Counted from the stretch's first letter, positions 20,256-49,120 are shown. The stretch is DNA of 64,000 bases from Leptospirales bacterium (GCA_013297885.1 JAAFIR010000010.1:62001-126000); one strand, 5' to 3'. Made by a program: numbers and translations. The notes: generated from the letters alone by a model not told the origin.

Positions 20256-20277
20256 ATTTTATATTACTTCTTTTTTT

Positions 20278-20316: not shown

Positions 20317-20326
20317 ATAAAATATC

Positions 20327-23831: not shown

Positions 23832-24029
23832 ACTATTAAAATATACGATAAAAATGATAAAATATGTATATAATTTTTTTAATAATTCTAACTTTTTTAT
23901 CTTTATTTTTGATTAATATGTTGGTTTCATATTGGAGTTGAAAAATCATAGAAATATTCTCTAATTGATTTATTCTATTTTTGTTGAAATTTTTGCTTGA
24001 ACTATTGATTTTTATTATTATACAATTCT

Positions 24030-24121
24030 GCGAAAAGGATCGAAGCGGTATCAAAAAATTACGAATGTAATTTTTTGATAGTAGCTAAGAGCCTGATTTT
24101 TGCTTTAGCAAAAATTCGCCC
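24030..24121 (+). repeat. Two-hairpin intergenic element, subfamily A, copy 5
   Basis: GCGAAAAGGATCGAAGCG, hairpin 1 with 14-bp arms TATCAAAAAATTAC/GTAATTTTTTGATA, GTAGCTAAGAGCCTG, hairpin 2 TTTTTGC-TTTA-GCAAAAA, TTCGCCC. It is the shortest copy, lying 61 bases beyond the stop of the CDP-alcohol transferase gene. The remaining sequence between 23832 and 24182 is AT-rich with nothing else recognised. Confidence 0.85.
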
Positions 24122-24182
24122 AAAAATATATTAAATATTTTAATTAATTTTTAAAGAAAACAACTTGGATAGTTTTATGTAT

Positions 24183-24764: not shown

Positions 24765-25287
24765 GTTTATCTATCTTATCTTGAACATATACAGAAAAAT
24801 AACCTTTGTATTTTTCTTGAACTTCTTTGATTTTAAAATCATTACCTGTAAATTTATTGCGGCATATTGATTTTTTACAACTTAATGGAAAAGAATAATC
24901 TGGATCTGTTTCAGTCATTGCATAATCAAAAGTTAATTCTTCACCAACTTCAATATCTTTTATAGCTACAAAAATAATTTGCCCTTTTACTCCACAATTT
25001 GGTTCACAACAATGATTCATTCTCCAATCATCTGAAGGGTTAACTGGATTTAATGGGCAAATTAAAAAATTTTCTGCTATATAATATGCATGATCAGATG
25101 AACCTGAATAAATTTTTTCAAATTCTTCTTTTGATAAAATTACTCCACCAGAAATGCTAACAATCTCATCTTTTAAAATTTTTTCAATTGCAAATAGCCC
25201 CTTATGTTCAATGCCTTGCATTTGAACTTTTTTTGAAACATAACTTTCAGCTTTTATTTTTGAAAGAACTTCTGATGAATATTCCAT
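24751..25287 (-). CDS. SET-domain protein
   Basis: 178 residues. SET features are clear: IEHKGLFAIEKILKDEIVSISGG at the start, NHCCEPNCGVKG (the NHxxxPN pseudoknot), IEVGEELTFDYA with the catalytic-type Tyr, and a Cys-rich C-terminal segment (SCKKSICRNKFTG) that could bind zinc after SET. Eukaryotic relatives methylate lysines; in bacteria the targets are mostly unknown. Its ATG overlaps the TAA of the FHA gene by one base. It is in the middle of a six-gene overlapping operon. Confidence 0.8.
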   Translation of the reverse strand: MEYSSEVLSKIKAESYVSKKVQMQGIEHKGLFAIEKILKDEIVSISGGVILSKEEFEKIYSGSSDHAYYIAENFLICPLNPVNPSDDWRMNHCCEPNCGVKGQIIFVAIKDIEVGEELTFDYAMTETDPDYSFPLSCKKSICRNKFTGNDFKIKEVQEKYKGYFSVYVQDKIDKLEGN

Positions 25288-26804
25288 TATTTACCTCGAA
25301 ATAACAAAGTGACTTTTCCTAGTTTAATTTCATCAAAATCATAAAGTGGTTTTGGTCTGAGAAGTTTTGTTCCGTTTAAAACTACACCAACTTTTGAAAC
25401 TGTATCAAAAATAACAAAAACATTTTTTACTTTTTTTATTTTAGCATGCATTGGACTAACTGAATTATCCAATAAAACTAAATCATTTGAAGCTGAATTT
25501 CCAATTGTTACTTCATCTTTGTTAATTGTAAATTGTCTTCCAGGATTTGGTCCTTCTTTAATTATTAAAACACCTTTATCATATTTTTCAGAATTATTTA
25601 ACACATCTACTGCAATATGAGAAGCCGTGGAATCATTGGTTTTTTTTTCGCTAATTGGATTATAATTATAAAGCGTATTATTAAAATCTTGTTCTTCAAT
25701 TAATTCTTCTTTTTTACTTGAATAATTTTCAAAACTAGAAAAATCTTCATCATCATTTAAAAGATTTTCATGATAGTATAAATCGTTTTTTAGTAGTTCT
25801 TCTTCTCTTAATTTTAATTCTTCATTTCGTTTTCTTTTCCTAATTTGTTCACTTACAATATATAAAATCACTAAACAAATAAATAAGACAACAAACATAA
25901 AAGTATAAAAAAATTCTATATTTGAAAATTTAGATTTAATAAAGTGATAACCAGAAATTTCATAATTTGATTTAATTTCTGATTTTCCAATTTTTAAACT
26001 TAAATCTATTTTTGTTTTTTTAAATAAATTTGCTGATTCTGAAAAAGAAGATTTATATTCTAAAACTGGTAAAGATTTTCTAAAATCATAAAGTTTTGAC
26101 TGTATTTCAGTAACCGATTTATTTTTATCAAAAGGATAATATTCTCCACCGGTGTATTCTGCTATTGCTAAAAACTTTTCATCATAAACAGAATACAAAT
26201 GAATAGGTTGATTTTGTTTTCTAGATTTTTCAACTAAAGTAGAAATTTTTTCATCGTCTTGAGTTGGAGTGTCCACACCAAATACTAAAATTAAATTTGG
26301 AAGATCATTTTCGTTCGTTTGAGAAAGAAGAAAATTAAGAGAACTAATAATTCTATTTCCTTTTGCAGATGAAATTGTTTCAAGTTTTGAAATTGCTTCC
26401 TGTTTATTTAAATTTGAACTTAGAAAATAAGTATCGTTTCCAAAAACTTGAATTCCAACACGATCATCTTTTGATAAACTTTGAATCAAAAGAACAGACA
26501 TTTGTTTTATATACTCTAATTTTTTTGTGTCATCAGTTGCTTGGATTGATAAAAATAATTTAATAGGTCGAAGTTGATTCTTTTTAAGAATGGCAAATGA
26601 GTGAATATTTTTGGTTATACCATCTCTTGTTTCTTGAATAGAAATGTTTTCACCTTGAATTGGCTTTAACTTATTTTCTGTAACATTCAATTGAACAAGT
26701 GGAAATTGTTCTAAGTCAACCTGTTCCAATTTTACTTTGGATTCTGAATAAATGGAACTTATAAATAAAAATAGAAACGCTTTAAAAAACAAAATGACCC
26801 TCAA
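25287..26804 (-). CDS. VWA-like and FHA-domain membrane protein
   Basis: 505 residues. A signal peptide is followed by an extracytoplasmic region of about 270 residues with a von Willebrand A-like fold (LFLSIQATDDT at the metal-site position, VGIQVFGND, LILVFGVDTP). The metal-site motif is degenerate. One membrane helix lies near 295-315, and the C-terminal FHA domain (VTIGNSASNDLVLLDNSVSPMHAKI) lies in the cytoplasm, where it would bind phosphothreonine. The start is TTG 26804, overlapping the ABC gene's stop. The design suggests signalling across the membrane. Confidence 0.75.
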   Translation of the reverse strand: MRVILFFKAFLFLFISSIYSESKVKLEQVDLEQFPLVQLNVTENKLKPIQGENISIQETRDGITKNIHSFAILKKNQLRPIKLFLSIQATDDTKKLEYIKQMSVLLIQSLSKDDRVGIQVFGNDTYFLSSNLNKQEAISKLETISSAKGNRIISSLNFLLSQTNENDLPNLILVFGVDTPTQDDEKISTLVEKSRKQNQPIHLYSVYDEKFLAIAEYTGGEYYPFDKNKSVTEIQSKLYDFRKSLPVLEYKSSFSESANLFKKTKIDLSLKIGKSEIKSNYEISGYHFIKSKFSNIEFFYTFMFVVLFICLVILYIVSEQIRKRKRNEELKLREEELLKNDLYYHENLLNDDEDFSSFENYSSKKEELIEEQDFNNTLYNYNPISEKKTNDSTASHIAVDVLNNSEKYDKGVLIIKEGPNPGRQFTINKDEVTIGNSASNDLVLLDNSVSPMHAKIKKVKNVFVIFDTVSKVGVVLNGTKLLRPKPLYDFDEIKLGKVTLLFRGK

Positions 26805-27550
26805 CCAAAAATAAAATTTTTAGAATACTCGAAATTAATTTTATATAAGTTTGCCTTTAGTAAAGTGATTTTTTCAAGTATTTCTCCACTTTTCAAAATA
26901 CTTACTTCATCAGATAAATTACGAATGATTCTTGGATCATGGCTGACTAAAAGGATTGAATTCAAAAAACTTTTATATGATTCAATTAAAAATTCTAGAA
27001 TTTCTTTTTCCGAATTAGAATCTAATGCAGTTGTCGGCTCATCTGCTAATAAAATCTCTGGCTCCAAAACTGAACAAATTTGGATGATAATTCTTTGTTT
27101 TTCCCCACCAGAAAGATTTTTTGGAAATAAGTCAAATTTTTTTTCAAAATCTCTGATGTTAATTTTCTCCCAAAGTTCAAGAATTTTTTTCTTGGAGGCA
27201 AATTCTTTTTTTTTAATTTTAAAATAATCTTTTACTTGTTCACCAATTGGAATATAAGGATGAAAAACCCTTGATGGATTTTGAGGAATTAGGGCAATTT
27301 TATTTCCTCTTAAAAGTTGAAATTCTTTTTCTGAATATAGAGAATAATTTTTTCCTAAGATATCAAATTTATCATATTTCAGAATTGAATTTGGAATTTT
27401 AATTCCTAAAATTAAATTTAATAAAGTTGATTTGCCTGAACCACTTTCACCCACAAATGAATGAATGGTTTTTTTTTGTAATACAAAATCTATATTTTTT
27501 AGAATATATCTTTCACCAATTTTTAAACTTAAATTTTTAATTTTTATCAT
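26801..27550 (-). CDS. ABC transporter ATP-binding protein, peptide-importer (DppD/OppD) type
   Basis: 249 residues. Walker A GESGSGKST, Q-loop IPQNPSRVFHP, signature LSGGEKQR, Walker B ILLADEPTTALD, and switch His in SHD are present. The DDDxPxxxFxP-like Q-loop context and overall likeness point to the dipeptide/nickel family. It lacks the C-terminal oligopeptide extension, and no permease or binding protein is adjacent, so it is an orphan whose partner is unknown. Four-base overlap with the FHA gene. Confidence 0.8.
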   Translation of the reverse strand: MIKIKNLSLKIGERYILKNIDFVLQKKTIHSFVGESGSGKSTLLNLILGIKIPNSILKYDKFDILGKNYSLYSEKEFQLLRGNKIALIPQNPSRVFHPYIPIGEQVKDYFKIKKKEFASKKKILELWEKINIRDFEKKFDLFPKNLSGGEKQRIIIQICSVLEPEILLADEPTTALDSNSEKEILEFLIESYKSFLNSILLVSHDPRIIRNLSDEVSILKSGEILEKITLLKANLYKINFEYSKNFIFG

Positions 27551-28289
27551 TTAAAATCATTTTTTTTATATCTTCTATTTTTTCTAAAAATTCAAATCTT
27601 GCTTCTTCAAAATTATACAAATTAAAATTTTTTGTATTTGGATTCATCTCAGATGAATTAACTCCTTGATTTAAAAAAAATAATTCATCTGAAATAATTC
27701 TTTTTTGTTTTTTTGTGGTATTATCAATAAATAAATTCTTAAAACTATCTGATTCAGTAATCAAAAGTAAAGCAATTGAGTTTGGTTTTAACTTTAAAAA
27801 TAATAATTCTTTAAAAAATTTATCCCATAATAAAACTTCTTTCCAAGAAAATTTATTTTTTTCTTCTAAAAGTTCTAAAGATTTTTCTGTTAATTTGAGA
27901 TTAGAAAATTTTGAAAGAAAAGATTTTAAATTTGAATGTTCTAATCTAATTGCACGATTAAGTTCAGCTTCTGAAACTTGAATGAGACCAGTAATTTTTT
28001 TATCTTGGTTTAACTGCAAATGATTCATTGTGCTAATGATAATGGAATACTCAATACCTGATTTTTCTTTTCCTTCTATTCGGTAAAGACCAGTTGCTGA
28101 TTTTAAAACTTTATAATTTTCTTTTTTTACAATTTCTCCAGAATTAATTTTTGATGTGAGTAGAAATTCTCCAAGTTTATCTTTTAATTCATTTAATTCA
28201 ACTTCAAAACCTTTTGGTTTTTTTTTTGGTTTTTCAGATTTTATTTCTTCTTTAGTATTTTTTCTAAAAAGCTTTTTTAAAAATTTCAT
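27537..28289 (-). CDS. Hypothetical cytoplasmic protein, 250 residues
   Basis: Strongly basic N-terminus (FLKKLFRKNTKEEIKSEKPKKKPKG), then an alpha/beta-looking body with no motif I recognise (SATGLYRIEGKEKSGIEYSIIISTMN, NSIALLLITESDSFKNLF). GGAGGG lies just before the ATG at 28289. It overlaps the ABC gene by 14 bases and the glycosyltransferase by four, so it belongs to the operon. Function unknown. Confidence 0.6.
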   Translation of the reverse strand: MKFLKKLFRKNTKEEIKSEKPKKKPKGFEVELNELKDKLGEFLLTSKINSGEIVKKENYKVLKSATGLYRIEGKEKSGIEYSIIISTMNHLQLNQDKKITGLIQVSEAELNRAIRLEHSNLKSFLSKFSNLKLTEKSLELLEEKNKFSWKEVLLWDKFFKELLFLKLKPNSIALLLITESDSFKNLFIDNTTKKQKRIISDELFFLNQGVNSSEMNPNTKNFNLYNFEEARFEFLEKIEDIKKMILNDKN

Positions 28290-29107
28290 TTTTTCCCTCC
28301 ATAATCCATTCTTAAATTAGAAGGTCTTTTTATATATTTTTTTTCTAATTCATAAATTTTAGCTTCTTTTAAAAAAGCAGAATATGAAGAAGAAATCGCT
28401 ATTACAAAACCTTGCAAACCATCAAGAACTCCTAATTTAAAAATATAAATTTCTAAAAATTTGATAAATGGTTTTGTTATCAAATTAAGAGTATTAAATT
28501 TTTTATTTTTATGAAAACGAGTAAAAGCAACAATAGAAGAAAATTTATTTATTGTATCTACTTGATGAGTTAAATCTTTAAAGCTATAATGAATGATGTC
28601 TGAATGAATTTTTTTTCCTACACCTTGAATCTCGATATAATCGTGTGGATTCTCACCTGTCCAAAAAGCTTTTTCTTTTTTAAAAAAACGATATTTATAT
28701 TGTGGGTACCAACCAGAGTGTTTAATAAATTTTCCCATATGAAAAGTGAGTCTTCTAATTTTATAACCGTCTATATTAGGATTTTCTAATATAATATTTT
28801 TTATTTCAGCCATTAATTCTTTACTTGCTCTTTCATCTGCATCTAGGCTTAAAATCCACTCCCCGCGACAGAGTTTGATAGCATCATTTTTTTGTTCAAT
28901 ATGACCTTTAAAATCTTGATTAAAAAATTTCACTTTTTTAAATTTGGAAGCTATTTTTTTTGTATTATCATTTGAATTTGAATCTAGAACAAGAATTTCA
29001 TCAGCAATTTCCACAACAGATTCAATACAGGCTTTAATATTTTTTTCTTCATTAAAAGTGATGATTGCGACTGAAAATTTAATTTTGTTCTTTTCAAGTT
29101 TCTGCAT
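28286..29107 (-). CDS. Glycosyltransferase family 2, LPS-core (WaaE/KdtX) type
   Basis: About 273 residues from ATG 29107. I chose this start because AAAGG precedes it and because the upstream ATG at 29149 would overlap the divergent gene's start. GT-A motifs are clear: SVAIITFNEEKNIKACIES, VLDSNSNDNT, and the metal-binding SLDADERAS. The C-terminal half (HSGWYPQYKYRFF, HDYIEI, HYSFKDLTHQV) is typical of the LPS-core family that adds sugars to the inner core. It is divergent from the O-antigen ligase gene and heads the minus-strand operon. Confidence 0.82.
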   Translation of the reverse strand: MQKLEKNKIKFSVAIITFNEEKNIKACIESVVEIADEILVLDSNSNDNTKKIASKFKKVKFFNQDFKGHIEQKNDAIKLCRGEWILSLDADERASKELMAEIKNIILENPNIDGYKIRRLTFHMGKFIKHSGWYPQYKYRFFKKEKAFWTGENPHDYIEIQGVGKKIHSDIIHYSFKDLTHQVDTINKFSSIVAFTRFHKNKKFNTLNLITKPFIKFLEIYIFKLGVLDGLQGFVIAISSSYSAFLKEAKIYELEKKYIKRPSNLRMDYGGKK

Positions 29108-29128
29108 ACCAAATACCTTTGCCTTAAA

Positions 29129-31048
29129 ATGAGAATTTTTAGTTTTCATCTATTTTTTTTGTTCTTGGTGAGTTTTCCGCTTTCGATCACAATTAGCCAA
29201 GCTTCTTTAATACTTAGTACATTCTTTTTTTTAGTCGAGTCTTATAAAGAAAAAAAGTTAAATAGGAGTTTTTTTCCAGATATTTTTTTTATTTCATTAG
29301 GAATTTATTTAAGCCTTATACCTTCAATTTTTGCAAATTTATTTCATTATACTGATTTTAAAAAAATTTTTTCACATTCAGAGATTTCAGATTTTTGGAT
29401 GTGTTTTGCAATTTTGCCAAGTTATCATTTTTATAAAGATGAAATGCTTAGAAAAAAAATACACTTTGCACTAAAAATTTCATTCAGCATAATTTTAATC
29501 TCAGGTATAATCTCGATTTTTACCCCTTTTAGACTTGGACAATTTATTTCAAATGGATTCAAAGTGAATGATGGAGATAGACTTCAACATTTTGCAGGAG
29601 ATTTTTTTGGAAGATTCACTTATTTACCACTCGGAATGTTAAATACTCATTTGAGTTTTGGAGGAATATTAGGTTTAGCTTATGTAGGAATTTTAATTTT
29701 TATAAAAAATTCTTTTAGAAAATTTACACTACTTAAAAAAATTTTATATTCTTTATTTATTTTATTATTTTCAATTTTAATTTTTTTTAATCAAAGCAGA
29801 TCTATTTGGCTTGGAATATTTTTTAGTTTTGTAATTTATATTTATAAAGAAAAAATTAATATTAAAAAAATAATTTTACCGGTAACATTAATTTTACTTA
29901 TTTTTTTTGGAGTTATTTATAAAAAAAATTGGTTAATTCAAAGAGCATTTGGTGAAAGTTTGAAAAACTCCACTGAAAATCAAAGACATTATATTTATAA
30001 ACATTCATTAAATATCATTTTTTCAAATCCCATATTTGGAGTGGGGGCAAATCGTTTTTCTGAAGTTCATAAAAATTTTTCTCTTGATGAAGTTTTAGAA
30101 AAACAAGAAATTTGGTATGAAACTGAAATTACACCTCGCCAACATGCACATCATGATTTAATTCATTTTTATTCTATCGGTGGAATTTTTAGTTTTTTAA
30201 TTTATTTACTATTTTGGATTTATTTACTAAGTCATTATTTCCGTGAAGAAAAAACTAATTATTTATTTTTAGGAATTTTTTCGATTTTTATTGGTGGATT
30301 TTTTCAATGTTTTATTTTGGATGATGAAGTTGCACTTCCTTTTTTTGCTTTTGTGGGAATGTTTTTTTCAGATCATTCAAATATAAAATTTAAACGTAAA
30401 AGAAATAATACTTTTCAAGTCGAATCTATTCAATATTTTTCTTATTTAAGATATAAATTCAAATTAGAAAAAAAAGCTATAATTTTAATCATCAGTTTTT
30501 TTATTTTTTCATTATCAGTTTTATGTATAATCGCTTATAAAAATAATTCAATAATCAGAAAAATTGAAACAAAAAATTCTGAAGATAGAATGCTGATTAG
30601 AAAAACTTTAAAAAATGAATTGATTCAATTTCCAACTTCTAAGATGAATTCATATTCAGACCAAATTATCATTTCAGGATGTTTAACTCATTATTTTAAT
30701 AAAAAACCAGAAATTAGAAAAGATGCATTTAAAATTAAAATGACTTTAGATGAAAAATCAAAAAATCCTCCAAAGTATGTAAAAATTTTTGTTTATGAAA
30801 GAGATGCCTTTGATCAAGATAAACTTTATAAGGTTCATACTAGAAAAAAATTAGATTTAGAATTTGAATTTGCAATTTATCAAAACGAAAATCATTTTGA
30901 GCTAAAAGAAATTTATTCAAAACAAGAATCAAAAAACTTTCCTGATAATATTTATTTTAGAGATTTTGGATTTTTTTTTGGAGGATTTGATCCAAGCCAA
31001 GAAAATTTTGATTTTCCTAAAATAGATTTTGGAAAAAATTGTAATTAG
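29129..31048 (+). CDS. O-antigen ligase-like (Wzy/WaaL family) membrane protein
   Basis: 639 residues. About ten membrane helices lie in the first 420 residues. The large periplasmic loop holds FGVGANRFSEVHKNF and RQHAHHDLIHFYSIGGIFSF, the pattern shared by O-antigen ligases and polymerases. After another helix (near 455-475), a soluble C-terminal domain of about 160 residues follows (FPTSKMNSYSDQIIISGCL), which is an extension unlike most ligases. It joins O-antigen to lipid A-core or polymerises it. The neighbouring LPS-type glycosyltransferase fits. Confidence 0.75.
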   Translation: MRIFSFHLFFLFLVSFPLSITISQASLILSTFFFLVESYKEKKLNRSFFPDIFFISLGIYLSLIPSIFANLFHYTDFKKIFSHSEISDFWMCFAILPSYHFYKDEMLRKKIHFALKISFSIILISGIISIFTPFRLGQFISNGFKVNDGDRLQHFAGDFFGRFTYLPLGMLNTHLSFGGILGLAYVGILIFIKNSFRKFTLLKKILYSLFILLFSILIFFNQSRSIWLGIFFSFVIYIYKEKINIKKIILPVTLILLIFFGVIYKKNWLIQRAFGESLKNSTENQRHYIYKHSLNIIFSNPIFGVGANRFSEVHKNFSLDEVLEKQEIWYETEITPRQHAHHDLIHFYSIGGIFSFLIYLLFWIYLLSHYFREEKTNYLFLGIFSIFIGGFFQCFILDDEVALPFFAFVGMFFSDHSNIKFKRKRNNTFQVESIQYFSYLRYKFKLEKKAIILIISFFIFSLSVLCIIAYKNNSIIRKIETKNSEDRMLIRKTLKNELIQFPTSKMNSYSDQIIISGCLTHYFNKKPEIRKDAFKIKMTLDEKSKNPPKYVKIFVYERDAFDQDKLYKVHTRKKLDLEFEFAIYQNENHFELKEIYSKQESKNFPDNIYFRDFGFFFGGFDPSQENFDFPKIDFGKNCN

Positions 31049-31142
31049 TTTTTTTCATTGAGATGACTCATACTAATAAATTGTTCCTTTTAATATAAAT
31101 TCAATACAACAGGGTAAAGTTTTTTATTTCAAATCCGAGAAT

Positions 31143-31193
31143 GAATCTAAGATAGATTCTTCTCTTGACAGGGCTAATCTATTTAAAATTATG
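31143..31193 (+). promoter_or_regulatory. Promoter and upstream dyad for tRNA-Met
   Basis: A perfect 7-3-7 palindrome GAATCTA-AGA-TAGATTC (31143-31159) lies five bases before a consensus TTGACA (31165-31170). A weak -10 (ATTATG, 31188-31193) follows after 17 bases, and the tRNA begins at 31203. The dyad could be an operator or a transcription-factor site. Confidence 0.45.
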
Positions 31194-31202
31194 TTCTTGA
31201 AC

Positions 31203-31276
31203 GGCGACATAGCTCAGCTGGTTAGAGCAATGGAATCATAATCCACAGGTCCGGGGTTCGAATCCCTGTGTCGCTA
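31203..31276 (+). tRNA. tRNA-Met (anticodon CAT)
   Basis: Acceptor GGCGACA pairs with TGTCGCT (G-T at the first pair). D arm GCTC/GAGC, anticodon loop ATCATAA, T arm CGGGG-TTCGAAT-CCCTG (one wobble), discriminator A. The top pair of the anticodon stem is an A-C mismatch. The lack of three G-C pairs in that stem argues against an initiator tRNA. An Ile-CAT (lysidine) tRNA cannot be fully excluded. Confidence 0.93.
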
Positions 31277-31295
31277 GATTCTATAGGAGTCAACT

Positions 31296-31592
31296 TTGAA
31301 AAAAAGCATTACCCTAATATGTTTCACCATTTCCCTTTTTGTAACTTCAAATATTTTTGCAAATGAACAATGTAAACCTGCATGTGATAAATTTTTAGAA
31401 TGTACAAAAGATATGAACAAAGGCAAATCAGCAACTGCAGCAGATATTAAAAAACTCACTGATGGTTGTATGAACACATGTAAGAAAAAAACAAGAGAAG
31501 TTCTTGGATGTTTTGCTACTTCAAGTAGTTCTTGTGTGAGCTTTGCACTTTGTATTCAAAAAAGTTACCAAGCATCAAAAACAACTAAATAA
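31296..31592 (+). CDS. Small secreted Cys-rich protein
   Basis: 98 residues with a signal peptide ending near ...SNIFA. The mature part has eight Cys in an ordered pattern (CKPACDKFLEC, CMNTCKKK, CFATSSSSCVSFALC), probably disulfide-linked. Small Cys-rich exported families of this kind are known from Leptospira, from memory. The start is TTG at 31296, chosen because AGGAG sits six bases before it and no ATG is near. It begins 20 bases after tRNA-Met and may be read through from the tRNA promoter. Confidence 0.75.
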   Translation: MKKSITLICFTISLFVTSNIFANEQCKPACDKFLECTKDMNKGKSATAADIKKLTDGCMNTCKKKTREVLGCFATSSSSCVSFALCIQKSYQASKTTK

Positions 31593-31622
31593 GTTCCAAC
31601 TATTTCCTTAGAGAATCTTTTT

Positions 31623-31663
31623 GTGTCGCATTTAATTTTTTGTTTACATGTTACATGCGACAC
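31623..31663 (+). terminator. Hairpin after the Cys-rich gene
   Basis: GTGTCGCAT (31623-31631) pairs perfectly with ATGCGACAC (31655-31663) across a 23-base AT-rich loop, 31 bases past the stop. It lacks a following T-run, so it may be a processing signal rather than a classic terminator. The rest of the 325-base gap (31664-31917) is AT-rich; an imperfect hairpin around TTATTTACAATT/AATTGTAAAAAATAA lies just before the next ATG at about 31858-31896. Confidence 0.4.
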
Positions 31664-31917
31664 TAGAAAACCTCTTATCTTTAATTAAATATACTCAATT
31701 AAAATTAAATTAAAAATTAATCCTTCTACATTCTTAGTTTTAGATTCTTAAAAAATTTTAGGATATAAATTAAACTTTGGTTTGAGAATAAAAATCTTTA
31801 CTCAAAATTGTCTAACTTTTTTAGTGGGTAGTTTAATAATTGAAATATAAAAGAAAATTATTTACAATTTTTACAAAAATTAATTGTAAAAAATAATTAA
31901 ACAAACTTATTAGATTA

Positions 31918-33084
31918 ATGAAAAATATTTTCTTATGCTTTTTTATTTTAATATTCAATTGTAAAATCAATCCACCTTGTTCAGTTTTGGATTCAACTTG
32001 TAATCCACTTGGTTATTTTATCCCAAACTTAATTAGGTCAAATCAAGTAGCATCCACTCCAACAGGAACGGGAACAGGTACAGGCACTGCGACAGGAACA
32101 GCAACTGGCACTGGAATAGGAACAGCGACTGGAACAGGCACTCCGGCTTCCACAATCACTTTTGCTGGAGTGAGCAATTTAAGAATTCTATCTTCAACTT
32201 CTGTTGAGCTGAGATGGACTGCAGCCACAAGCACTGCTGCTGGAAACATGGAATACAATATATATCGTTCAGCAACATCTGGAACACAAGTTTTCACAAC
32301 CCCAGTTCTAACAGTAAATAATGTCACTACTGCAACAATCACTGGAATCACTGCGAACACAAATAATTATTATGTAGTTCGAGCAAGAGACACTACAGGA
32401 ACAACAGATACAAACACAGCTGAAAGAGGTGCACTCTTTAATGGACTAATAAGATATATTCCACTCGATGCAACACCACTTGCAACTGGGGAGAGGATCG
32501 GGAACCAATCTATATCACAGATAGGAGGTCTAACACCCATAGCAACAGATAGGTTTGGTGTGGCTAATAATGCTTATTTGTTAAATGGAAGTAGTCAATT
32601 CTTTCAATTTAATCAAACCACTCCAACTGCTCTACCAACTGGAAATAATCCTAAAACATTTTGTGCTTGGATTAGAACATCATCTACTAGTCTACAAACC
32701 ATTACTGGATATGGTAATGCCCCACAAGCAAATTTTATGATTGTTCCTATTGATGGATTCATTAGTTTAACTTATGATCAAAGTGGAGGTTTTAATAATC
32801 AATCTACAGCTACCTCAAGTATTACAAATGGAAATTGGAATTTTGTTTGTGTTACAATGCAAAGAACAGCTAATGCTAATGTTTCTACTTTTCAAATTAA
32901 TTCTAATTTTATATCTGAATATGTCAATGCGACTACTGCATTAAATTCAGACAACTCACTACTTGGAACTATTGGACGATTTTCAAGTGCTGCTTCTAAT
33001 TGGTTTAATGGTAATATCGCAGAAGTGTCTATTTGGAATCGTGTTTTGACTCAAGCAGAATTATTGGCTGTGTTTAGGAATTAG
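31918..33084 (+). CDS. LamG/concanavalin-like lipoprotein with Thr-Gly linker
   Basis: 388 residues. The signal peptide ends in IFNC (acceptor Cys15). A linker at about 48-75 is built almost only of Thr, Gly and Ala dipeptides. A fibronectin-III-like domain follows at about 80-165 (VSNLRILSSTSVELRWTAA, YYVVRARDTTG), and a LamG/concanavalin-like domain from about 170 to the end (FCAWIRTSS, WNFVCVTMQRTAN, AEVSIWNRVLTQAELLAVF). Such surface lipoproteins bind sugars or matrix proteins. Amino-acid use (Thr, Ser, Asn, Ala) and higher GC in the linker differ from the neighbours. Confidence 0.75.
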   Translation: MKNIFLCFFILIFNCKINPPCSVLDSTCNPLGYFIPNLIRSNQVASTPTGTGTGTGTATGTATGTGIGTATGTGTPASTITFAGVSNLRILSSTSVELRWTAATSTAAGNMEYNIYRSATSGTQVFTTPVLTVNNVTTATITGITANTNNYYVVRARDTTGTTDTNTAERGALFNGLIRYIPLDATPLATGERIGNQSISQIGGLTPIATDRFGVANNAYLLNGSSQFFQFNQTTPTALPTGNNPKTFCAWIRTSSTSLQTITGYGNAPQANFMIVPIDGFISLTYDQSGGFNNQSTATSSITNGNWNFVCVTMQRTANANVSTFQINSNFISEYVNATTALNSDNSLLGTIGRFSSAASNWFNGNIAEVSIWNRVLTQAELLAVFRN

Positions 33085-39668: not shown

Positions 39669-41438
39669 ATGTCACTTAAAAAAATAGAAGAAATTGTACA
39701 AAAAAAACCTTACCTAAAATTGTACAATTCTTGTACGAGCCTTGGAGAATTTTCTATTCATTCGGCAAAAGAAAAAGATGAATTTTATGTAGAATTCCAA
39801 AAAAAAAAATTATCTAGCCCAATTGCCCCAAAAAAAGCAGCAGAGCGACAAATTGAATCTGTAAAAAATTATGAAAACCAAATTGTATTTTTACTTGGAC
39901 TTGGAAATCCTCAACTCATAACTGAAATCAATTTAAAGCTAAAAGAAAATCAAATTTTAATACTAATAGATTTATCTGAAGAAATTTTTCCTCTTCTTTG
40001 GGACAGCCATCTTGCTGATGTGATGGATGTGGCAGGGAGACATTTGTTTCTTGGAGATGAAAAATTACATTTGCTTTGGAACTATTTGGAGTCTTTGCCA
40101 ATTGAAAAAGTGGATGGAATCAAATTTTTAAAAAACCAACCAAGTATAGAACTCAATCCAGAATTTTATTTTGAAGCAGAAGAAAAAATTAGAAAATTAT
40201 TTTCCTCTAAAATGAGTGATCTTCTCACCAAATTTGAATTTGATAGAATTTGGGGAAAAAATTCATTTCAAAATATTTTACAAGCAAAACATTTAAAACA
40301 AAAAATTTATCGAGTCAAAGATTTATTTTTTCAATTTGAAACTATTCCTGCTGTTTTAGTTTCTGCGGGACCAAGCCTTCGACACCAAGTTCCACTTTTA
40401 AAAAAAATCAGAGACAAAGTATTTTTATTTTCTTGTGACACTTCTTTAAAAGTTTTACTCAAAGAAAAAATTATTCCTGATGCAGTGATGACACTCGATG
40501 CACAAACTCATTCTTATTTTCATTTTCTCGGAGAAGAGCTTTCTGAAATACCACTTTTTGCAGATATTGTAACTTCTCCAAACTTGTTACGTAATTTTAA
40601 TTTTCGTTCCATTGTATTTTCGATGACAGCTAAGTACCAAGCTTTAGCAAACGGACAAGCATTTATAGAAAAAACTGCAGGAGGAAATTTAGTAGAAAAA
40701 GCATTTGGGGAACTTGGTTATATTCAGTCTGGAGGTTCAGTTGCAACTTCTGCATTTGATATTTTGAGACAAATGGGTTTTTCGCCAATTTTTTTAATTG
40801 GACAAGACTTAGCTTATACTGGTCGCGAAATTCACTCAACAGGAACTCATCACAACGAAAAATGGCTCACTTTACTCAATCGAAAAAAATCTTTAGAAAA
40901 AATTAACGAAGAAATTGTTCGTAAACGTGAAACCATGAAAGTAAAATCTGCTGATGGAAAAGAAGTTCTAACTGATTTTATTTTAAACTTGTACAAATCT
41001 TGGTTTGAAGAGTCGATGAAAAATTCTACACTAGATGTTTACAATATTTCAGATCGTGGTGCTTATATTGAAAACATCAAACATCTAAATTTACTCGAAG
41101 CAGAAAAAATTTTTGAAACTTACAAAGATCATTCTTATCCTTGGAAAGAAAAATCTGCTTGGAGCTTAAAAGAAAACTCAAACATAAATCTCGAAACAGC
41201 ACAAGAAATAAAAAACCTATTTTTTGAAGAAGTTCAAATTTTCCAAAACCAAAAAGATTCTTCTTCAGAAGAAATCCTAAATTTTTTAAAACAAAGCATT
41301 TTACTAAACGACATTCTCCGCAAAACAAAAGTTTATCTCTCTCGAAACAACTCTGCTTTATCAGAAGAAAAAAAAGTAGAACTTTTAAAAGATGCAATCG
41401 ACAGAGAGATAAGTTATTTGAAAAGATATGTGGGTTAG
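39669..41438 (+). CDS. DUF115 (MptE-like / motility-associated Maf-type) protein
   Basis: 589 residues. The central domain matches the DUF115 family: AVLVSAGPSLRHQVPLLKKI, FSCDTSLKVLLKEKIIPDAVMTLDAQ, GGSVATSAFDILRQMGFSPIFLIGQDLAYTG. In flagellated bacteria these Maf-type proteins put nonulosonic acids on flagellin; a related archaeal protein is a pterin pyrophosphokinase. An N-terminal domain of about 190 residues and a helical C-terminal tail frame it. No flagellin gene is near, so the target is not known. A single-gene unit. Confidence 0.78.
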   Translation: MSLKKIEEIVQKKPYLKLYNSCTSLGEFSIHSAKEKDEFYVEFQKKKLSSPIAPKKAAERQIESVKNYENQIVFLLGLGNPQLITEINLKLKENQILILIDLSEEIFPLLWDSHLADVMDVAGRHLFLGDEKLHLLWNYLESLPIEKVDGIKFLKNQPSIELNPEFYFEAEEKIRKLFSSKMSDLLTKFEFDRIWGKNSFQNILQAKHLKQKIYRVKDLFFQFETIPAVLVSAGPSLRHQVPLLKKIRDKVFLFSCDTSLKVLLKEKIIPDAVMTLDAQTHSYFHFLGEELSEIPLFADIVTSPNLLRNFNFRSIVFSMTAKYQALANGQAFIEKTAGGNLVEKAFGELGYIQSGGSVATSAFDILRQMGFSPIFLIGQDLAYTGREIHSTGTHHNEKWLTLLNRKKSLEKINEEIVRKRETMKVKSADGKEVLTDFILNLYKSWFEESMKNSTLDVYNISDRGAYIENIKHLNLLEAEKIFETYKDHSYPWKEKSAWSLKENSNINLETAQEIKNLFFEEVQIFQNQKDSSSEEILNFLKQSILLNDILRKTKVYLSRNNSALSEEKKVELLKDAIDREISYLKRYVG

Positions 41439-42718: not shown

Positions 42719-43264
42719 ATGGAAATACTTTTACCCGATGAATACAACACTTTAGATGAAGTTTTTGAATTATGGAAATTTTTTAGAAAACAAACAATTG
42801 CTTGTTTAGAAAAAACTCCAAAAGAAATTTTTACTGTCAACCCTGAAGAAGGACGTTGGTCTATTTCTGAAGTTGGAGAACATTTATATATAACACAAAA
42901 TAATTTATCTAGAACATTTCCGATTGTGCTCGCAAAAAAATTTGGTGAAGAGTTTAGTGGCTACAAACAAGAAATGCATTTTAAAATCATAAGACGAAAT
43001 ATGATGAAGCCAACAAAAGTAAAAAATCCGGCTTCAGTTGCTCCATTAAATAAATATTCATTTGAAGAACTTCTTCCTTTGTTAAACTCTGCTGAAGAAA
43101 AAATGTCTCAATTTGTAAACAAATACAAAAAAGAAGATTTAGAAAAAAGAGCAATGGAGCATCCCATTTTTGGAATGTTAAATGTGTTTCATTTTTTTTG
43201 GATTATGTCCATGCACGAAAGATCACATTTAACTGCTCTAGAAGAAAGAACAAAAGATTTTTAA
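42719..43264 (+). CDS. DinB-family protein
   Basis: 181 residues, helical, with DinB/DUF664-like features: EGRWSISEVGEHLYITQ near residue 42 carries the first His, and NVFHFFWIMSMHERSHLTAL near the end carries His residues that would complete a metal site. Cellular role unknown. Its stop directly abuts the rhomboid ATG. It is the second DinB-like gene in the window (compare 21583-22095) but shares little sequence with it. Confidence 0.72.
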   Translation: MEILLPDEYNTLDEVFELWKFFRKQTIACLEKTPKEIFTVNPEEGRWSISEVGEHLYITQNNLSRTFPIVLAKKFGEEFSGYKQEMHFKIIRRNMMKPTKVKNPASVAPLNKYSFEELLPLLNSAEEKMSQFVNKYKKEDLEKRAMEHPIFGMLNVFHFFWIMSMHERSHLTALEERTKDF

Positions 43265-43927
43265 ATGATAAAATTTTTTTGGGAATTTCCACTGAGTTTA
43301 TGTACAACATTTTTTTTGTTTTGCTTTTATTTTACCGTAAATTCCACTCTTTCACATGTAAAAATTGCTACTTACTTTTATTCTTATCCAGGTAAGTTTA
43401 GTTTTATCAACTGGATTTTGTCTTCCTTTTATCATGCCTCTCCTATGCATCTTTTTTCAAATATGTTTTTTTTGTATTTTCTTGGAAGAGCTGCTGAATC
43501 AAAAATTTCAAAAGGCAAATGGATTTTATTTTATTTATCTGCTGGAATTATCTCTATGATGTTTGATTCTATTGTGAGAGGATTTATTTTACATGAAAAA
43601 ATTCCAGCTGTTGGAGCAAGTGGAGCCATTTCTGGAATAGCTGCTGTTGCAATGGTTTATTCTCCTTTACAATATCGTGTGCTTGGAATAAATTTTGTAT
43701 TTCCTGTTTTTATACTTGCATGGTTAATGATTTATTCTGATTTTATGAATATGTTCAGCTCTGACCATGTTGCACATTTTGCTCATCTCGCAGGATTTTT
43801 TTCCATTCTTGTAACTTCGTATTTGTTATCAGAAAAAGATAGAGCTAAACTTAGAACTAATTTTTCTTTAAATGCATTATTTTTTATTTTTACAATAATT
43901 TTACTTTTCTTTTTGGAGAACAGATAA
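43265..43927 (+). CDS. Rhomboid-family intramembrane serine protease
   Basis: 220 residues with six or more membrane helices. Catalytic Ser119 in GASGAISG and His174 in AHFAHLAGF form the rhomboid dyad, and HLFSNMFFLYFLG supplies the oxyanion region of helix 2. It would cut membrane proteins within the bilayer. It is tightly linked to the DinB gene (no gap) and the MDR gene (one-base overlap), so it is in the same transcript. Confidence 0.85.
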   Translation: MIKFFWEFPLSLCTTFFLFCFYFTVNSTLSHVKIATYFYSYPGKFSFINWILSSFYHASPMHLFSNMFFLYFLGRAAESKISKGKWILFYLSAGIISMMFDSIVRGFILHEKIPAVGASGAISGIAAVAMVYSPLQYRVLGINFVFPVFILAWLMIYSDFMNMFSSDHVAHFAHLAGFFSILVTSYLLSEKDRAKLRTNFSLNALFFIFTIILLFFLENR

Positions 43928-45312
43928 TGAAAGTTTCTTTCAAAGCATGGGAATATATTTCAGATGATAAATTTATCCAAACAGAATATGATTTTGTGGG
44001 AGATAAAAATTCTGGTTGGGAAATTTTTAGAAACAACAAACCTCATTTAAAATTAGGTGAAGGTTATGAATTATTCAAATCCAAATATTGTGGAATTTGT
44101 TCCACTGATTTAGCTAGAAGATTTCTTCCGTTTCCACTTCCACAAATTACTGGACATGAAGTTGTTGCAACTAGTCTTGATGGAAAAAAAAATTATGTTC
44201 TAGAAATAAACGATACATACCAAGCTCGTGGTGTAGAAGAAGATATTTTTTGTAAATCAGGAATCCCAACTCATTCACCAGATAGAATGGTTCTTGGAAT
44301 TGATAGACTGCCCGGTGGATTTGGAGAATACATTTTGTCTCCAATAAATGCTGCAATTGAATTTGATGAAATTTCTCCTAAACTTGCTGTGCTAATCGAG
44401 CCATTTGCTGCTTGTCTTCAATCTGTGATCGCTTCTCCTCCAAAAAAAGGAGATCATGTAGCAGTTCTAGGACCAAGAAGACTTGGAAATTTACTTATTG
44501 CTGCACTTGCTTCTTATAAAAAATCTCACCAAATAGATTTTGAAATTTCTGCTCTTGCGAGGCACAATGAACTTTTAGAAGTTTCAAAAAAACTCGGAGC
44601 AGATTCAGTTTTTAGATCAGATAAATTAAAAGATAAAAAATTTGATATTGTATATGATACAACGAGCACTGAGTCTGGATTTTTACAAGCATTAGAAATT
44701 GCAAAAAGAGAATTACATTTAAAAACAACTAATGGACAAGAAATGTCAGGTTTAAAAAAATTAACTGAGCTAGTTGTAGATGAACTTTCTTTGATGTCTT
44801 ATTCAGAAGAAAATTTGAATTTTAAATGGGAAAATGCAAATTATAAAAATGAAAAAATTGTAGTGAGTGAAAATTCTAAGATTTCTTTAAAAGAAAATTT
44901 TTATAAAAGCAAAATTTCTGATGCAGAAAAAATTTTAGAAAGTGAAGAATTTCAAAATCGAATTCCCAGATTTGATTTGAGTATTGTTTCCAATTTAGAA
45001 GAAATTGATTTGTCGATTAGACCTTCAACTGCACACGAAAATTCTTTGGTGAGACCAAGAGGAGCGATTTTATTTTCAGGTGAATCAAATGAAAATCCAG
45101 TTTTAAAATTTTTAAATTCTGGTGGAAAAATTCGTTCTTCTCGTTGTGGAGATTTTCACAAAGCTTTAAAATTATTATCTGAGAACAAAGAAATTTCTGA
45201 AAATTTAGTGAGTCATTTAATAACTCATCGTTATTCATCGAAAAATATGAATGAAGCTTTTTTAAAAGCCAAAGAAAAAGATGCAGTAAAAGTAGTAATT
45301 GAACATGAATAA
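43927..45312 (+). CDS. Zinc-type medium-chain dehydrogenase (MDR) with insertion
   Basis: 461 residues, about 100 more than common MDR enzymes. The catalytic zinc site is suggested by KYCGICSTDLARRF and QITGHEVV (Cys, His-Glu), the proton-relay/cofactor parts by LIEPFAACLQSV, and the dinucleotide fold by HVAVLGPRRLGNLLIAAL. A stretch at about 255-360 interrupts the fold, which ends in ITHRYSSKNMNEAFLKAKEKDAVKVVI. The structural-zinc cysteine cluster is absent. Substrate unknown. Overlaps an adenosylhomocysteinase-like gene, hinting at a shared pathway. Confidence 0.72.
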   Translation: MKVSFKAWEYISDDKFIQTEYDFVGDKNSGWEIFRNNKPHLKLGEGYELFKSKYCGICSTDLARRFLPFPLPQITGHEVVATSLDGKKNYVLEINDTYQARGVEEDIFCKSGIPTHSPDRMVLGIDRLPGGFGEYILSPINAAIEFDEISPKLAVLIEPFAACLQSVIASPPKKGDHVAVLGPRRLGNLLIAALASYKKSHQIDFEISALARHNELLEVSKKLGADSVFRSDKLKDKKFDIVYDTTSTESGFLQALEIAKRELHLKTTNGQEMSGLKKLTELVVDELSLMSYSEENLNFKWENANYKNEKIVVSENSKISLKENFYKSKISDAEKILESEEFQNRIPRFDLSIVSNLEEIDLSIRPSTAHENSLVRPRGAILFSGESNENPVLKFLNSGGKIRSSRCGDFHKALKLLSENKEISENLVSHLITHRYSSKNMNEAFLKAKEKDAVKVVIEHE

Positions 45313-47692
45313 ACTTGAAACCACTTTAGGAAGTCCATTAATTTGGGAAGATCATTGGAAAATTGACTTAAAAGAATTAAAAATTTTTACAGGACTTTCA
45401 ATTCTCTCCCAAATTATTGGAGATCAAATTTTTGATGAATTGGAAACTGGACTTGGTGACATTCATTTTTTATATAAAATAAATCCAAACATAAACCCTG
45501 AACTTATACAAATGCAAATTTCATCTATTCAGATTTATTCTGAATCTGGAGTTTTAGATGAATTGGTATTTAGAAAAGAAGATCTCCAAATTTTTTTGAG
45601 AACCATTTTTGGAACTTTTCAAAGACCCAATTGGGCAAAATTTATTCATCCAGAATTTTTTGGAGAAGATAATAAAACTTTTTCGAATCAATCCCTTGTT
45701 TTTCAATTTGAAAATTTATTTTTTATTTTAAATAGATTTGAAAATCAAAGACAAGTTGGAAAATTTTTTCTGAGACTTAAAATTACAAAAGATAATCCTT
45801 TTGAATCTTTAAAAGAAACTGATGGATTTCATCTAGTAAATGATATACAGAATAGAAAATATATTGCTGGAACTTCAAAACTTGCTGAATCAATTTCTGA
45901 AAAAATTTTAACTTCTGTTCAAAAAAATTTAAGTTCTTATATTGAAGAAAAAACTTCGTATAATTTATTATTTAGTAGCTTAGAAAAAACTTTTTTAAAT
46001 GATATTGAACAAATTTGTTTTCATTTTAGTGCAAGTTTTACAGAAAATATTCAAAAACTTTCTAAATTTGAACAAGTTCAAGTTTATAAAAAAATCTTTT
46101 TGACATTTGAAGATAAAAGTATAGCTGATGAAATTTTAAATGAAAAACTTTTCGAAATTGAAACACATAAGAATATTAGAGTTTTCTTATATACTTCTAG
46201 AAAAAATAAATTTTTAAATTTAAGTTTTGGAGAAATTAAAAAAAGTATCAGTTTAGAAAACTATTTAGATAAGATGCAAATTTTAAATTCTATTTTAGAA
46301 AAAAATTTAGATTTTCAAGATATTTCAGTTTTTTTAATTCATCATATCACTTCTGAAATTTTAGCTGTAATTGAATTAATTCGCAATTTAAAACCGGTTT
46401 CACTTGATATGATGTTTGTAAAATATGCAGGAAAAATTCCAGATGCTTATCTTGATTCTTTATTTAATATAAATGATGAAAATTTTTTTATGGCAGGACT
46501 TGCTAGACACACAACTGAAGACAACAAAGAATATTTTAGTTTGGCTAAATACTATTCTGATTTGACTGTGCATGAAAAATTTGCTCAAGACTTAGATTCC
46601 AAAAAATTAAAATTTTTTGATGCAATGAAATCTATTTCAATTTATTTTTTTCTTTTAAGATTAGAAAAAGTGATTTTTGAAAAGAAAAAAATTTTACTAA
46701 TTGAAGATGGTGGATATTTAGCTCCAATTTTAAATGAATATATGATTTCAGAAAAAACAATTGGTGAAATTTATGATGAAAATTTTATTTCCACAAAACT
46801 CGACAAATCCAAAAAACTAAAAGAGATTTTGGATGAATATTTAGTTGGAACAGTAGAACACACTAGAAACGGTTATGACAGATTACAAAAAGTAAAATCA
46901 AATTTTGATAAATTTGAAACCACAACTTTTTCTATTGCAATCTCCAATGAAAAAGTAATCGAAGAATCTAAAGAAGTGGCTCATTCTATTCTTAGTGCAA
47001 TTGAATCTATTTTACATGGACAAGGAAAAATTTTATCTAAACGAAAAATAATAATACTTGGTGCAAAAGGAAATATTGGTTCTTTTTTGGTGAATTACTT
47101 ACTAGGTGGAAGACTTCATGATACTAATTTAAAACTTATTGAAGTGGATTTAAAATGTACAGATGGAATTGCAGGTTTTGAATTTTTACACCAAATTCCT
47201 AATGAAGAATTTTTAGATTTGGATTTATTTATTGGAGTAATTGGTGATTCTATTTTAAAATCAGAGTTGATTAAAAATTTAATTTTAAATGGAAAAAAGC
47301 GAGATTTATTTTTTGCGTCTGGTTCTACAAAAACTGTTGAGTTTACAGATCTTTCTGAATATATTTATAAAATATTAGATAATCCTAATATACTTGGAGA
47401 GAATGTTTCTGTTGAAATTTCTAAAATTCAAGACCCTCAAAGTTTAATGAACCAAGGAACAAAAGTAAAAATCAAAAGTCCAAAAATAGAAAAAAATTTA
47501 TATCTACTTGGGGATTTAAGTCCAATTAATTTTTTATATTATGGTGTTCCAACAGAAACAATGGATAAAATCTTATCACAATTGATTCAAGTGAGTCTTG
47601 GTTTGGTAAATCAATACAAAAATTCAAAACTACCAACAAAAGGAATTTATGCAGTTGACAAAGAAATTGATGAATGGGGAAATTTGTTATGA
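45305..47692 (+). CDS. Large adenosylhomocysteinase-like NAD-binding protein
   Basis: About 795 residues from ATG 45305; a TTG at 45299 is possible. The first 370 residues match nothing I know. The second half follows the S-adenosylhomocysteine hydrolase plan: ILLIEDGGYLAPIL, then GTVEHTRNGYDRLQKV (like the VEETTTGVHRL segment), IAISNEKVIEESKEVAHSILSAIESIL, and the Rossmann loop IIILGAKGNIGSFLV near residue 583. The C-terminal GIYAVDKEIDEW recalls the SAHH tail. SAHH uses bound NAD for an oxidation-elimination-reduction cycle. Substrate unknown. Confidence 0.55.
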   Translation: MNKLETTLGSPLIWEDHWKIDLKELKIFTGLSILSQIIGDQIFDELETGLGDIHFLYKINPNINPELIQMQISSIQIYSESGVLDELVFRKEDLQIFLRTIFGTFQRPNWAKFIHPEFFGEDNKTFSNQSLVFQFENLFFILNRFENQRQVGKFFLRLKITKDNPFESLKETDGFHLVNDIQNRKYIAGTSKLAESISEKILTSVQKNLSSYIEEKTSYNLLFSSLEKTFLNDIEQICFHFSASFTENIQKLSKFEQVQVYKKIFLTFEDKSIADEILNEKLFEIETHKNIRVFLYTSRKNKFLNLSFGEIKKSISLENYLDKMQILNSILEKNLDFQDISVFLIHHITSEILAVIELIRNLKPVSLDMMFVKYAGKIPDAYLDSLFNINDENFFMAGLARHTTEDNKEYFSLAKYYSDLTVHEKFAQDLDSKKLKFFDAMKSISIYFFLLRLEKVIFEKKKILLIEDGGYLAPILNEYMISEKTIGEIYDENFISTKLDKSKKLKEILDEYLVGTVEHTRNGYDRLQKVKSNFDKFETTTFSIAISNEKVIEESKEVAHSILSAIESILHGQGKILSKRKIIILGAKGNIGSFLVNYLLGGRLHDTNLKLIEVDLKCTDGIAGFEFLHQIPNEEFLDLDLFIGVIGDSILKSELIKNLILNGKKRDLFFASGSTKTVEFTDLSEYIYKILDNPNILGENVSVEISKIQDPQSLMNQGTKVKIKSPKIEKNLYLLGDLSPINFLYYGVPTETMDKILSQLIQVSLGLVNQYKNSKLPTKGIYAVDKEIDEWGNLL

Positions 47693-48126
47693 GTAAACAT
47701 GGACAATTTCAAATTACTCAAAAAGTTTTTGTAATTAAAGAAAATAAATTATTAGTTATGAAAGATCATAAATCTGGTGCGGGTGATTTGCCAGGTGGAA
47801 GAATGAACCAAGAAGAATTTTTTCAAGATTGGATGATTTCTTTAAACCGTGAAATTGAAGAAGAAATGGGATCCAATTTTAAATTAGAAATTTCTAAAGA
47901 ACCAATTTTTATTCATAAACATCTCGTGAATGACGGAAATCATCCTTGTTTAGTGATTGCTTATTTTGCAAAATATATTTCTGGTGAAATTTTAATTTCT
48001 GATGAACATGATTTTTACAAATGGGTGGAAATTGATTCTTATAATCCTGAAGAACTATTTTCAGAGTATATGTTGGAAATCATAAATTTATTTTTAAAAA
48101 GGTATAAAAATGGTCTCTATTTATAG
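47689..48126 (+). CDS. Nudix hydrolase
   Basis: 145 residues from ATG 47689 (ATGA overlap with the upstream stop, GGGGA before it); an in-frame ATG at 47674 is also possible. The Nudix box is present in slightly stretched form: GDLPGGRMNQEE followed by LNREIEEEMGSNF, with the metal-binding REIEEE. Such enzymes cleave nucleoside diphosphates linked to another group. It sits between the SAHH-like and nitrilase-like genes and overlaps the latter by 17 bases. Confidence 0.8.
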   Translation: MSKHGQFQITQKVFVIKENKLLVMKDHKSGAGDLPGGRMNQEEFFQDWMISLNREIEEEMGSNFKLEISKEPIFIHKHLVNDGNHPCLVIAYFAKYISGEILISDEHDFYKWVEIDSYNPEELFSEYMLEIINLFLKRYKNGLYL

Positions 48127-49120
48127 ATTTATAATTTTTTTTATTTTATCTGCAATTTTAATTTTTTATTCAAATACTTTAACAAATCGTTTTTATTCAA
48201 AATCTGAAATTGAAAAAATATCAAATCAAACAGAAGAATTTAACTTTAAATCAATGGGATATAAATCTGAAAAAGGAAATTTAGTTTTAATTTCAAATTC
48301 TTTTAGACCAATTGATTTTGCATCTGAAGAAATTTATTTTAATAAAATTGAATCTATTTTAAAAACTATTTCTGAAAAAAATTTTATTGGAGAAGAAACT
48401 TTCATTATTTTTCCAGAACATATTGGAAGTTTTTTATTTTTAATAGATGAAAAAAAAGAAATTTATAATTTTAAAACTTTAAACGAAGCTTTGGAAAAAA
48501 TCAAATATTCTAATCCTGAATTAGTTCTTACAAAAAATTTAATACCAAAGTTAATTGAGAAGAAAAAGAATAAAATTTTAGAAATATACAAAAATACTTT
48601 TTTAAAATTATCCAAAAAATATTCTGTTTCCATTTTTGCTGGAAGTATAGTATTGCCAGAATTAAAATTTGAAAATGAAAATTTAGTTTTTTCTTCCACA
48701 GAATTAAAAAATCAAAGTTTGATTTTTACATCTGAAGAAAAAATTTATGAAAAAATTGGTTCTGCTAAAAATATTTCTGAACTAGATAAATCAATTTTTG
48801 AATTAAAAGAAAATCCAAATTCTGAAATTTTGAACTTTTTTGATACAAGTATTTTACTCACAGAAGATTCAAGAAAAATAGAATTAGAAAAAATTAAAAC
48901 TGGTCATATTGTTTCAATCAATTTTACAAATACGGAAAATTCAGAATTTTATGATAAAATAAAAAACTTATCTTCTAATAAATCGTATGCTCAGATTTTT
49001 TTTAAAGGAAAATTTTTTAATTTAGAAATGTATTCAAATGAAATTCAGTCAATTCGATACATTAACTTGGAAAATCATAATGACAAAAAATCTTTTATAT
49101 TGAATCATTTTTTAAATTAA
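48110..49120 (+). CDS. Membrane-anchored nitrilase-like (carbon-nitrogen hydrolase) protein, apparently inactive
   Basis: 336 residues. An N-terminal membrane helix (5-24) precedes a domain with nitrilase-like landmarks: FIIFPEHIGSFL, where Glu would be the general base, and KLSKKYSVSIFAGSIVLPE, the strand before the usual core. I see no Cys at all in the protein, so the nucleophile of the Glu-Lys-Cys triad is missing. It may be a non-catalytic relative, or the likeness may be misleading. AAAAGG precedes the ATG. Last gene of the overlapping run that begins at 42719. Confidence 0.45.
   Translation: MVSIYRFIIFFILSAILIFYSNTLTNRFYSKSEIEKISNQTEEFNFKSMGYKSEKGNLVLISNSFRPIDFASEEIYFNKIESILKTISEKNFIGEETFIIFPEHIGSFLFLIDEKKEIYNFKTLNEALEKIKYSNPELVLTKNLIPKLIEKKKNKILEIYKNTFLKLSKKYSVSIFAGSIVLPELKFENENLVFSSTELKNQSLIFTSEEKIYEKIGSAKNISELDKSIFELKENPNSEILNFFDTSILLTEDSRKIELEKIKTGHIVSINFTNTENSEFYDKIKNLSSNKSYAQIFFKGKFFNLEMYSNEIQSIRYINLENHNDKKSFILNHFLN

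Follow-up and report, generated by a model that had tools for sequence, protein, structure and literature searches.

S-adenosylhomocysteine hydrolase (SAHH) is usually viewed as a narrowly conserved housekeeping enzyme, and the AHCYL proteins, in which an SAHH-like part follows an N-terminal extension, are regarded as idle sensors or regulators. In SAHH, an HxTxQ(E) motif reads adenine and the 5'-OH; the 5'-OH is read by an Asp, the 3'-OH by Thr and Lys, and the 2'-OH jointly by a Glu and the acidic member of the Lys/Asp pair (PMC7765604). Here we describe a large, previously undescribed relative of SAHH, a 795-residue protein (BIG) encoded in a Leptospirales bacterium directly after a zinc-dependent dehydrogenase of the MDR type. 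MDR and BIG together form the core, a genuine module that is conserved. A literature search for systems of this kind, with subscription papers mostly outside its scope, returned nothing relevant. BIG belongs to a widespread sister family of SAHH in which the adenine-reading and redox residues are kept, the ribose side is changed and a dehydrogenase partner recurs, which points to an undescribed reaction, probably on a nucleoside-like compound.

The Leptospirales gene string

The window analyzed is a stretch of 64,000 nucleotides from a contig that is part of a 4.6 Mb genome, with a GC content of 23-33% per 4 kb. The initial annotation described four consecutive overlapping genes encoding MDR, BIG, a Nudix hydrolase and a nitrilase-like protein; all four open reading frames were recovered in place, and every junction between them overlaps (Table 1). 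The start of BIG was taken as the ATG at 45305, which defines residue 1, with an alternative upstream TTG at 45299, and the Nudix start (ATG 47689), conserved in relatives, overlaps the BIG stop. Upstream, the DinB_2 gene (end 43264) abuts the rhomboid gene (start 43265), whose end (43927) in turn overlaps the MDR start. The order DinB, rhomboid, MDR, BIG, Nudix, nitrilase-like gene is repeated in Leptospiraceae relatives, and the operon is therefore longer than the four genes noted. Elsewhere in the window, GC dips to 23-25% at 20001-32000, and an MptE-like protein similar to the flagellin modification protein PseD is encoded at 39669-41438.

Table 1 Features of the gene string and of BIG (window positions; BIG residues numbered from the ATG at 45305)
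Feature	Position	Strand	Basis or remark
DinB_2 family protein	42719..43264	+	Pfam match; first gene of conserved string
Rhomboid-family protein	43265..43927	+	Pfam match; directly upstream of MDR, also in same-clade relatives
MDR zinc-dependent dehydrogenase, 461 aa, long type	43927..45312	+	Pfam, NCBIfam comparison, alignment
BIG, 795 aa: N-terminal domain (1-312) and predicted SAHH-superfamily module (about 315-795)	45305..47692	+	AlphaFold model, Foldseek, hhalign, conservation
BIG N-terminal domain, residues 1-312	45305..46240	+	Structure prediction; Q106 invariant in 38 sequences
H347-x-T349-x-E351, aligned with HxTxQ(E) of SAHH (contacts to adenine and 5'-O)	46343..46357	+	hhalign, conservation
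E467-D468-G-G-Y471, counterpart of SAHH DDGGD; D468 = 5'-O contact	46703..46717	+	hhalign, conservation
E518-H519-T520-R-N522-G523, counterpart of SAHH EETTTG; His519 replaces Glu156	46856..46873	+	hhalign, conservation
S547-x-x-K550-x-x-x-E554, counterpart of SAHH Lys186/Asp190 redox pair	46943..46966	+	hhalign, conservation
G586-x-x-G589-x-x-G592, dinucleotide-binding loop	47060..47080	+	Sequence search, conservation
SGSTKTxEF (672-680), in place of SAHH NIGHFD gate	47318..47344	+	Conservation; register read by eye
Nudix hydrolase	47689..48126	+	PF00293 match; box alignment
Nitrilase-like protein, 336 aa, hydrophobic N-terminus, no Cys nucleophile	48110..49120	+	Alignment of relatives

The MDR resembles L-threonine dehydrogenase and RspB-type zinc MDRs in its ADH_N and cofactor domains and its catalytic zinc ligands, but it scores far under the NCBIfam cut-offs for them, and the long type differs further in having an insertion and an altered structural-zinc lobe. 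The catalytic ligands C58, H77/E78 and E158 are kept, with the set (C, H-E, E) invariant in 10 sequences, so that MDR is, to judge from its sequence, probably an active dehydrogenase. The four-Cys lobe for structural zinc, present in short MDRs, is lost in the window protein. In pairwise comparison this protein matches the short MDR encoded in the Desulfobacterota operon at E 4e-18; PDB relatives score more weakly. The insertion, put at 100 residues in the initial annotation, is real and spans about 110 residues (roughly 292-402). The pairwise comparison with the short MDR raised the idea of a tandem repeat of the protein's own Rossmann unit, which was rejected because the profile score fell within that of column shuffles (12.3, against a shuffled maximum of 17.2).

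The Nudix protein matches PF00293 above cut-off and has an intact REuxEExG catalytic helix, with the stretch from the box Glu to RE three residues longer than usual (Ex10RE, versus Ex7RE in the consensus Gx5Ex7REUxEExGU). In the nitrilase-like protein the Glu-Lys-Cys triad is incomplete: the Glu of FPEH is kept, and the nucleophile is missing as had been claimed, with S, T or G at the Cys position in five relatives (register read by eye). Only one of five members of this family matches CN_hydrolase (E 1.1e-4).

Predicted fold and putative ligand-site residues of BIG

Sequence searches of Pfam, NCBIfam and PDB left BIG unrecognized, and neither the SAHH models PF05221/PF00670 nor NCBIfam SAHH matched it. 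Its AlphaFold model (pLDDT 85.5, pTM 0.74), built from 15 Leptospirales sequences, contains the two-Rossmann SAHH fold. The top 50 Foldseek matches of the model in PDB are all SAHH or SAHH-like, the best with E 3.3e-13 and probability 1.00 over about 500 aligned columns, and TM-scores normalized to the target are about 0.5-0.6. An hhalign comparison of BIG to SAHHs that the host and its relatives encode covered 248 and 351 columns with E 0.009 and 0.0042, these being pairwise E-values with low reported probabilities (4.5 and 8.1%); as a control, the alignment of MDR, which also has a Rossmann domain, gave E 0.19 over 71 columns. The SAHH likeness proposed initially for the 795-residue protein is thus supported by the predicted structure, the check proposed along with it, and by profile alignment, and on the model BIG is a member of the SAHH superfamily distinct from SAHH itself. 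A role as a substitute for SAHH was rejected, as the host has a canonical SAHH encoded elsewhere, and so do 26 of 30 genomes, whether or not they carry BIG.

The N-terminal part that the initial annotation could not place does exist and has no PDB match, but it is about 312 residues long and not 370. Modeled separately from 38 sequences, residues 1-312 reach pLDDT 93.8; Foldseek found nothing significant in PDB or BFVD (viral), and a PDB profile search gave no identity. This domain may serve as a specificity or assembly module.

Within the SAHH-like module, H347, T349, E351, D468, T520, K550, E554 and SGSTKTxEF are identical in all 39 full-length BIG relatives, so the adenine signature is present as HxTxE in every one. 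In the hhalign register, we take the first seven of these residues to be the counterparts of His55, Thr57, Glu59, Asp131, Thr157, Lys186 and Asp190 in human SAHH numbering. Since hhalign drifts toward the C-terminus, the register there was read by eye. BIG shares with SAHH the two-Rossmann fold, the HxTxE motif, the DGG loop, the Thr, Lys and acidic residue at the ribose 3'-OH site, and an Asn in the C-terminal hinge region. It differs in having no Pfam match and an extra N-terminal domain, in GxxGxxG for GxGxxG, and in the replacement of Glu156 by His, Asp190 by Glu, Asn191 by Ser (read in the window protein) and His353 by Val. E-H-T-x-N-G, with His in place of the absent Glu156 of EETTTG, is invariant among the 39 relatives. 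The NIGHFD access gate (His301-Phe302) is absent and SGSTKT stands there instead (register by eye), a sequence invariant in long and short BIG relatives alike. All ligand-contact residues are kept except the 2'-OH Glu, which is His519, and the second Asp is Glu (contacts from PMC7765604). Given the HxTxE signature, a nucleoside-type ligand is plausible. His519 suggests that the surroundings of the 2' position differ, and the loss of Glu156 and of the GHF gate makes the SAHH reaction itself unlikely for BIG.

We tentatively favor, at a little short of an even chance, a reading of BIG as an NAD+ enzyme of the SAHH superfamily that acts on an adenine-nucleoside-like substrate, works with the zinc dehydrogenase and, in a Desulfobacterota-centered clade, is tied to MinD/HAMP partners. 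From the retained residues we infer that BIG would close over its substrate and, if SAHH chemistry is retained, that NAD+ would oxidize a ribose hydroxyl via the Lys550/Glu554 pair. His347 and Asp468 could then serve as acid-base residues in an elimination or addition on the 5' side, which would carry the leaving group, after which NADH would reduce the intermediate and restore the hydroxyl. Most simply, MDR would oxidize or reduce an alcohol or carbonyl made or used by BIG.

Reuse of the SAHH fold for a dehydrogenase or lyase acting on a non-nucleoside, such as a sugar or polyol, is unlikely. The GxxGxxG loop does resemble that of SDR-type epimerases, the ribose side is changed by the Glu156 to His replacement and the lost gate, and nucleotide-sugar or inositol-phosphatase genes lie near a few loci (L116; L051). 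Against this, HxTxE is identical in 39 of 39 long proteins while short relatives have HxDxK, a difference suggesting that the long proteins are under selection to recognize the base.

These short SAHH-like relatives, which adjoin a PF14196 (ATC_hydrolase) domain or are fused with one, share the core EDGGY, ExTxNG, SxxK...E and SGSTKTxEF with BIG, but have another N-terminus and Leu or Tyr for His519 and form a separate clade. They are 607-686 residues long, with one fusion of 829 residues, and most have HxDxK in place of HxTxE. They were found at L070:7277-11722, L075:511-3000, L076:1100-3706 and L077:4696-7362, in Marinifilum (which has a tandem pair), Ruminococcus, Lachnospiraceae and a Deltaproteobacteria-labeled metagenome-assembled genome (MAG).

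Pairing of BIG with the dehydrogenase across phyla

A search of genome contigs with the single BIG protein gave no match; with the BIG alignment as query, the same search returned 45 loci, from Spirochaetota, Desulfobacterota, Planctomycetota, Acidobacteriota and others. The closest relatives are in Leptospiraceae MAGs. The distribution is sparse, with 11 full-length matches and one trivial match in 296 genomes of the phylum to which locus L048 belongs, and none was found in the plasmids searched.

MDR-BIG adjacency is the core common to loci across phyla. The long-type MDR adjoins BIG in Leptospiraceae, in L038, in Planctomycetota and similar contigs (L046, L051, L057, L062) and in G146/L117. 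In the last of these, an apparent MDR-BIG fusion (a 1287-residue open frame) was rejected as a GC-rich artefact because MDR and BIG lie in different frames. MDR was also found by tblastn near BIG in 14 of the 18 fetched loci with a MinD-like gene (MinD-type loci). In some MinD-type loci BIG has no MDR next to it, and a search of G342, G264, G224, G251 and G362 gave no close match to MDR, so the pair is not obligatory there. In a sister family BIG lies apart from MDR, yet a long MDR is encoded elsewhere in seven of eight BIG-positive genomes, compared with one of seven BIG-negative genomes (G011). The divergence of BIG and that of MDR are correlated (r 0.76 over 19 loci, no control gene in the comparison). 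The pair, recurring in several phyla, looks like a real enzyme system. The MDR of the sister family often directly follows glycine-cleavage-like genes (L094:2244-8369, L095:2139-8271, L098:6853-12665); at L098, the G011 locus, it has a shortened insertion and no BIG accompanies it.

Separation of the genes in relatives had been named as a check on the cluster. MDR and BIG remain together across phyla, but by tblastn over the fetched loci the Nudix and nitrilase-like genes lie beside BIG only in one Leptospiraceae clade; in the relative G004/L021 they are not beside BIG, and MDR-BIG alone is kept. This bears on the route first proposed, in which MDR, BIG, Nudix and the nitrilase-like protein would process one nucleoside- or sugar-linked compound. 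A nucleoside-type ligand is plausible from HxTxE, and the genes overlap and keep their order in several Leptospiraceae. The confinement of the last two genes to one clade nevertheless leaves the four-enzyme pathway unsupported, and the nitrilase-like protein lacks its nucleophile, making a joint pathway highly improbable.

The MinD-type operon

In one large, Desulfobacterota-centered clade the gene order is MinD-like ATPase, ECF-S-like/HAMP membrane protein, usually MDR, then BIG. The ATPase and the HAMP/ECF-S-like protein were found beside BIG in 18 loci (tblastn over fetched loci). Neither gene lies beside BIG in the window, so that these more widespread partners, located in other phyla, were not visible to the initial annotation. 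In the MinD-type loci BIG has an N-terminal extension whose amphipathic motif reads, for example, VLQKLI or ILDNLM. The peptide is present in 20 of 21 MinD-type proteins and in none of 21 others (Fisher p 8e-11, for a regular expression composed after the sequences were seen), but the p-value overstates independence because the MinD-type loci form a single group on the tree with full support, making peptide and MinD one correlated event.

Partners of ParA/MinD ATPases are reported to engage them via a charged N-terminus (PMC10241942), which makes contact between the BIG peptide and MinD plausible. The loci resemble ParA/MinD positioning systems such as McdAB in that the MinD-like ATPase gene adjoins a gene whose product begins with a short amphipathic peptide, and differ in that the first Walker A Lys is Arg (FRGGTGKS) and the putative partner is an enzyme. 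In this clade BIG would be tied to the ATPase and the ECF-S-like/HAMP protein, probably through its N-terminal peptide, while the Leptospiraceae would have no MinD/HAMP part and would have added the Nudix and nitrilase-like genes. If the link is real, this ATPase family would position or tether an enzyme, and the link is potentially the more interesting aspect of the BIG family. The fullest version is rather doubtful: an undescribed multi-phylum, NAD+-dependent nucleoside-processing system that combines a zinc dehydrogenase with an enzyme of the SAHH superfamily whose N-terminal fold is new, positioned or membrane-recruited in one large clade by its own MinD-type ATPase and HAMP protein, with the enzyme as direct MinD-type cargo.

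The main rival to a catalytic BIG is one that we consider somewhat unlikely: an idle protein in a sensing or regulatory role, which would bind NAD(H) together with an adenine nucleoside and signal to MDR or to the MinD/HAMP partners of the other phyla. Foldseek matches include AHCYL1 (3mtg) and adenosylhomocysteinase 3 (3gvp), which, like BIG, have an SAHH-like module after an N-terminal extension; in BIG the equivalents of E156 and H301 are altered; and in other phyla a MinD-like ATPase and a HAMP protein without an output domain are among the partners. Unlike in the AHCYL proteins, the extension of BIG is a folded 312-residue domain without a PDB match, and the Lys/acid pair is retained. Invariance of K550, E554, H347 and D468 in 39 sequences exceeds the needs of pure binding, and a search of Leptospiraceae and Planctomycetota genomes, which retain the dehydrogenase, did not find the HAMP protein. 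A search for the ECF-S/HAMP protein in Leptospirales and Planctomycetota-type genomes gave HAMP-only matches and otherwise none.

In the sensor-like membrane protein at L048:7847-8932 an ECF-S-like domain precedes HAMP, and no output domain is recognizable. Its neighbor (L048:6936-7694), like the ATPases of other MinD-type loci, carries the FRGGTGKS motif; the deviant Walker A KGGxxK[ST] reads RGGTGKS in the MinD-like proteins examined, which match ParA/AAA_31 in Pfam.
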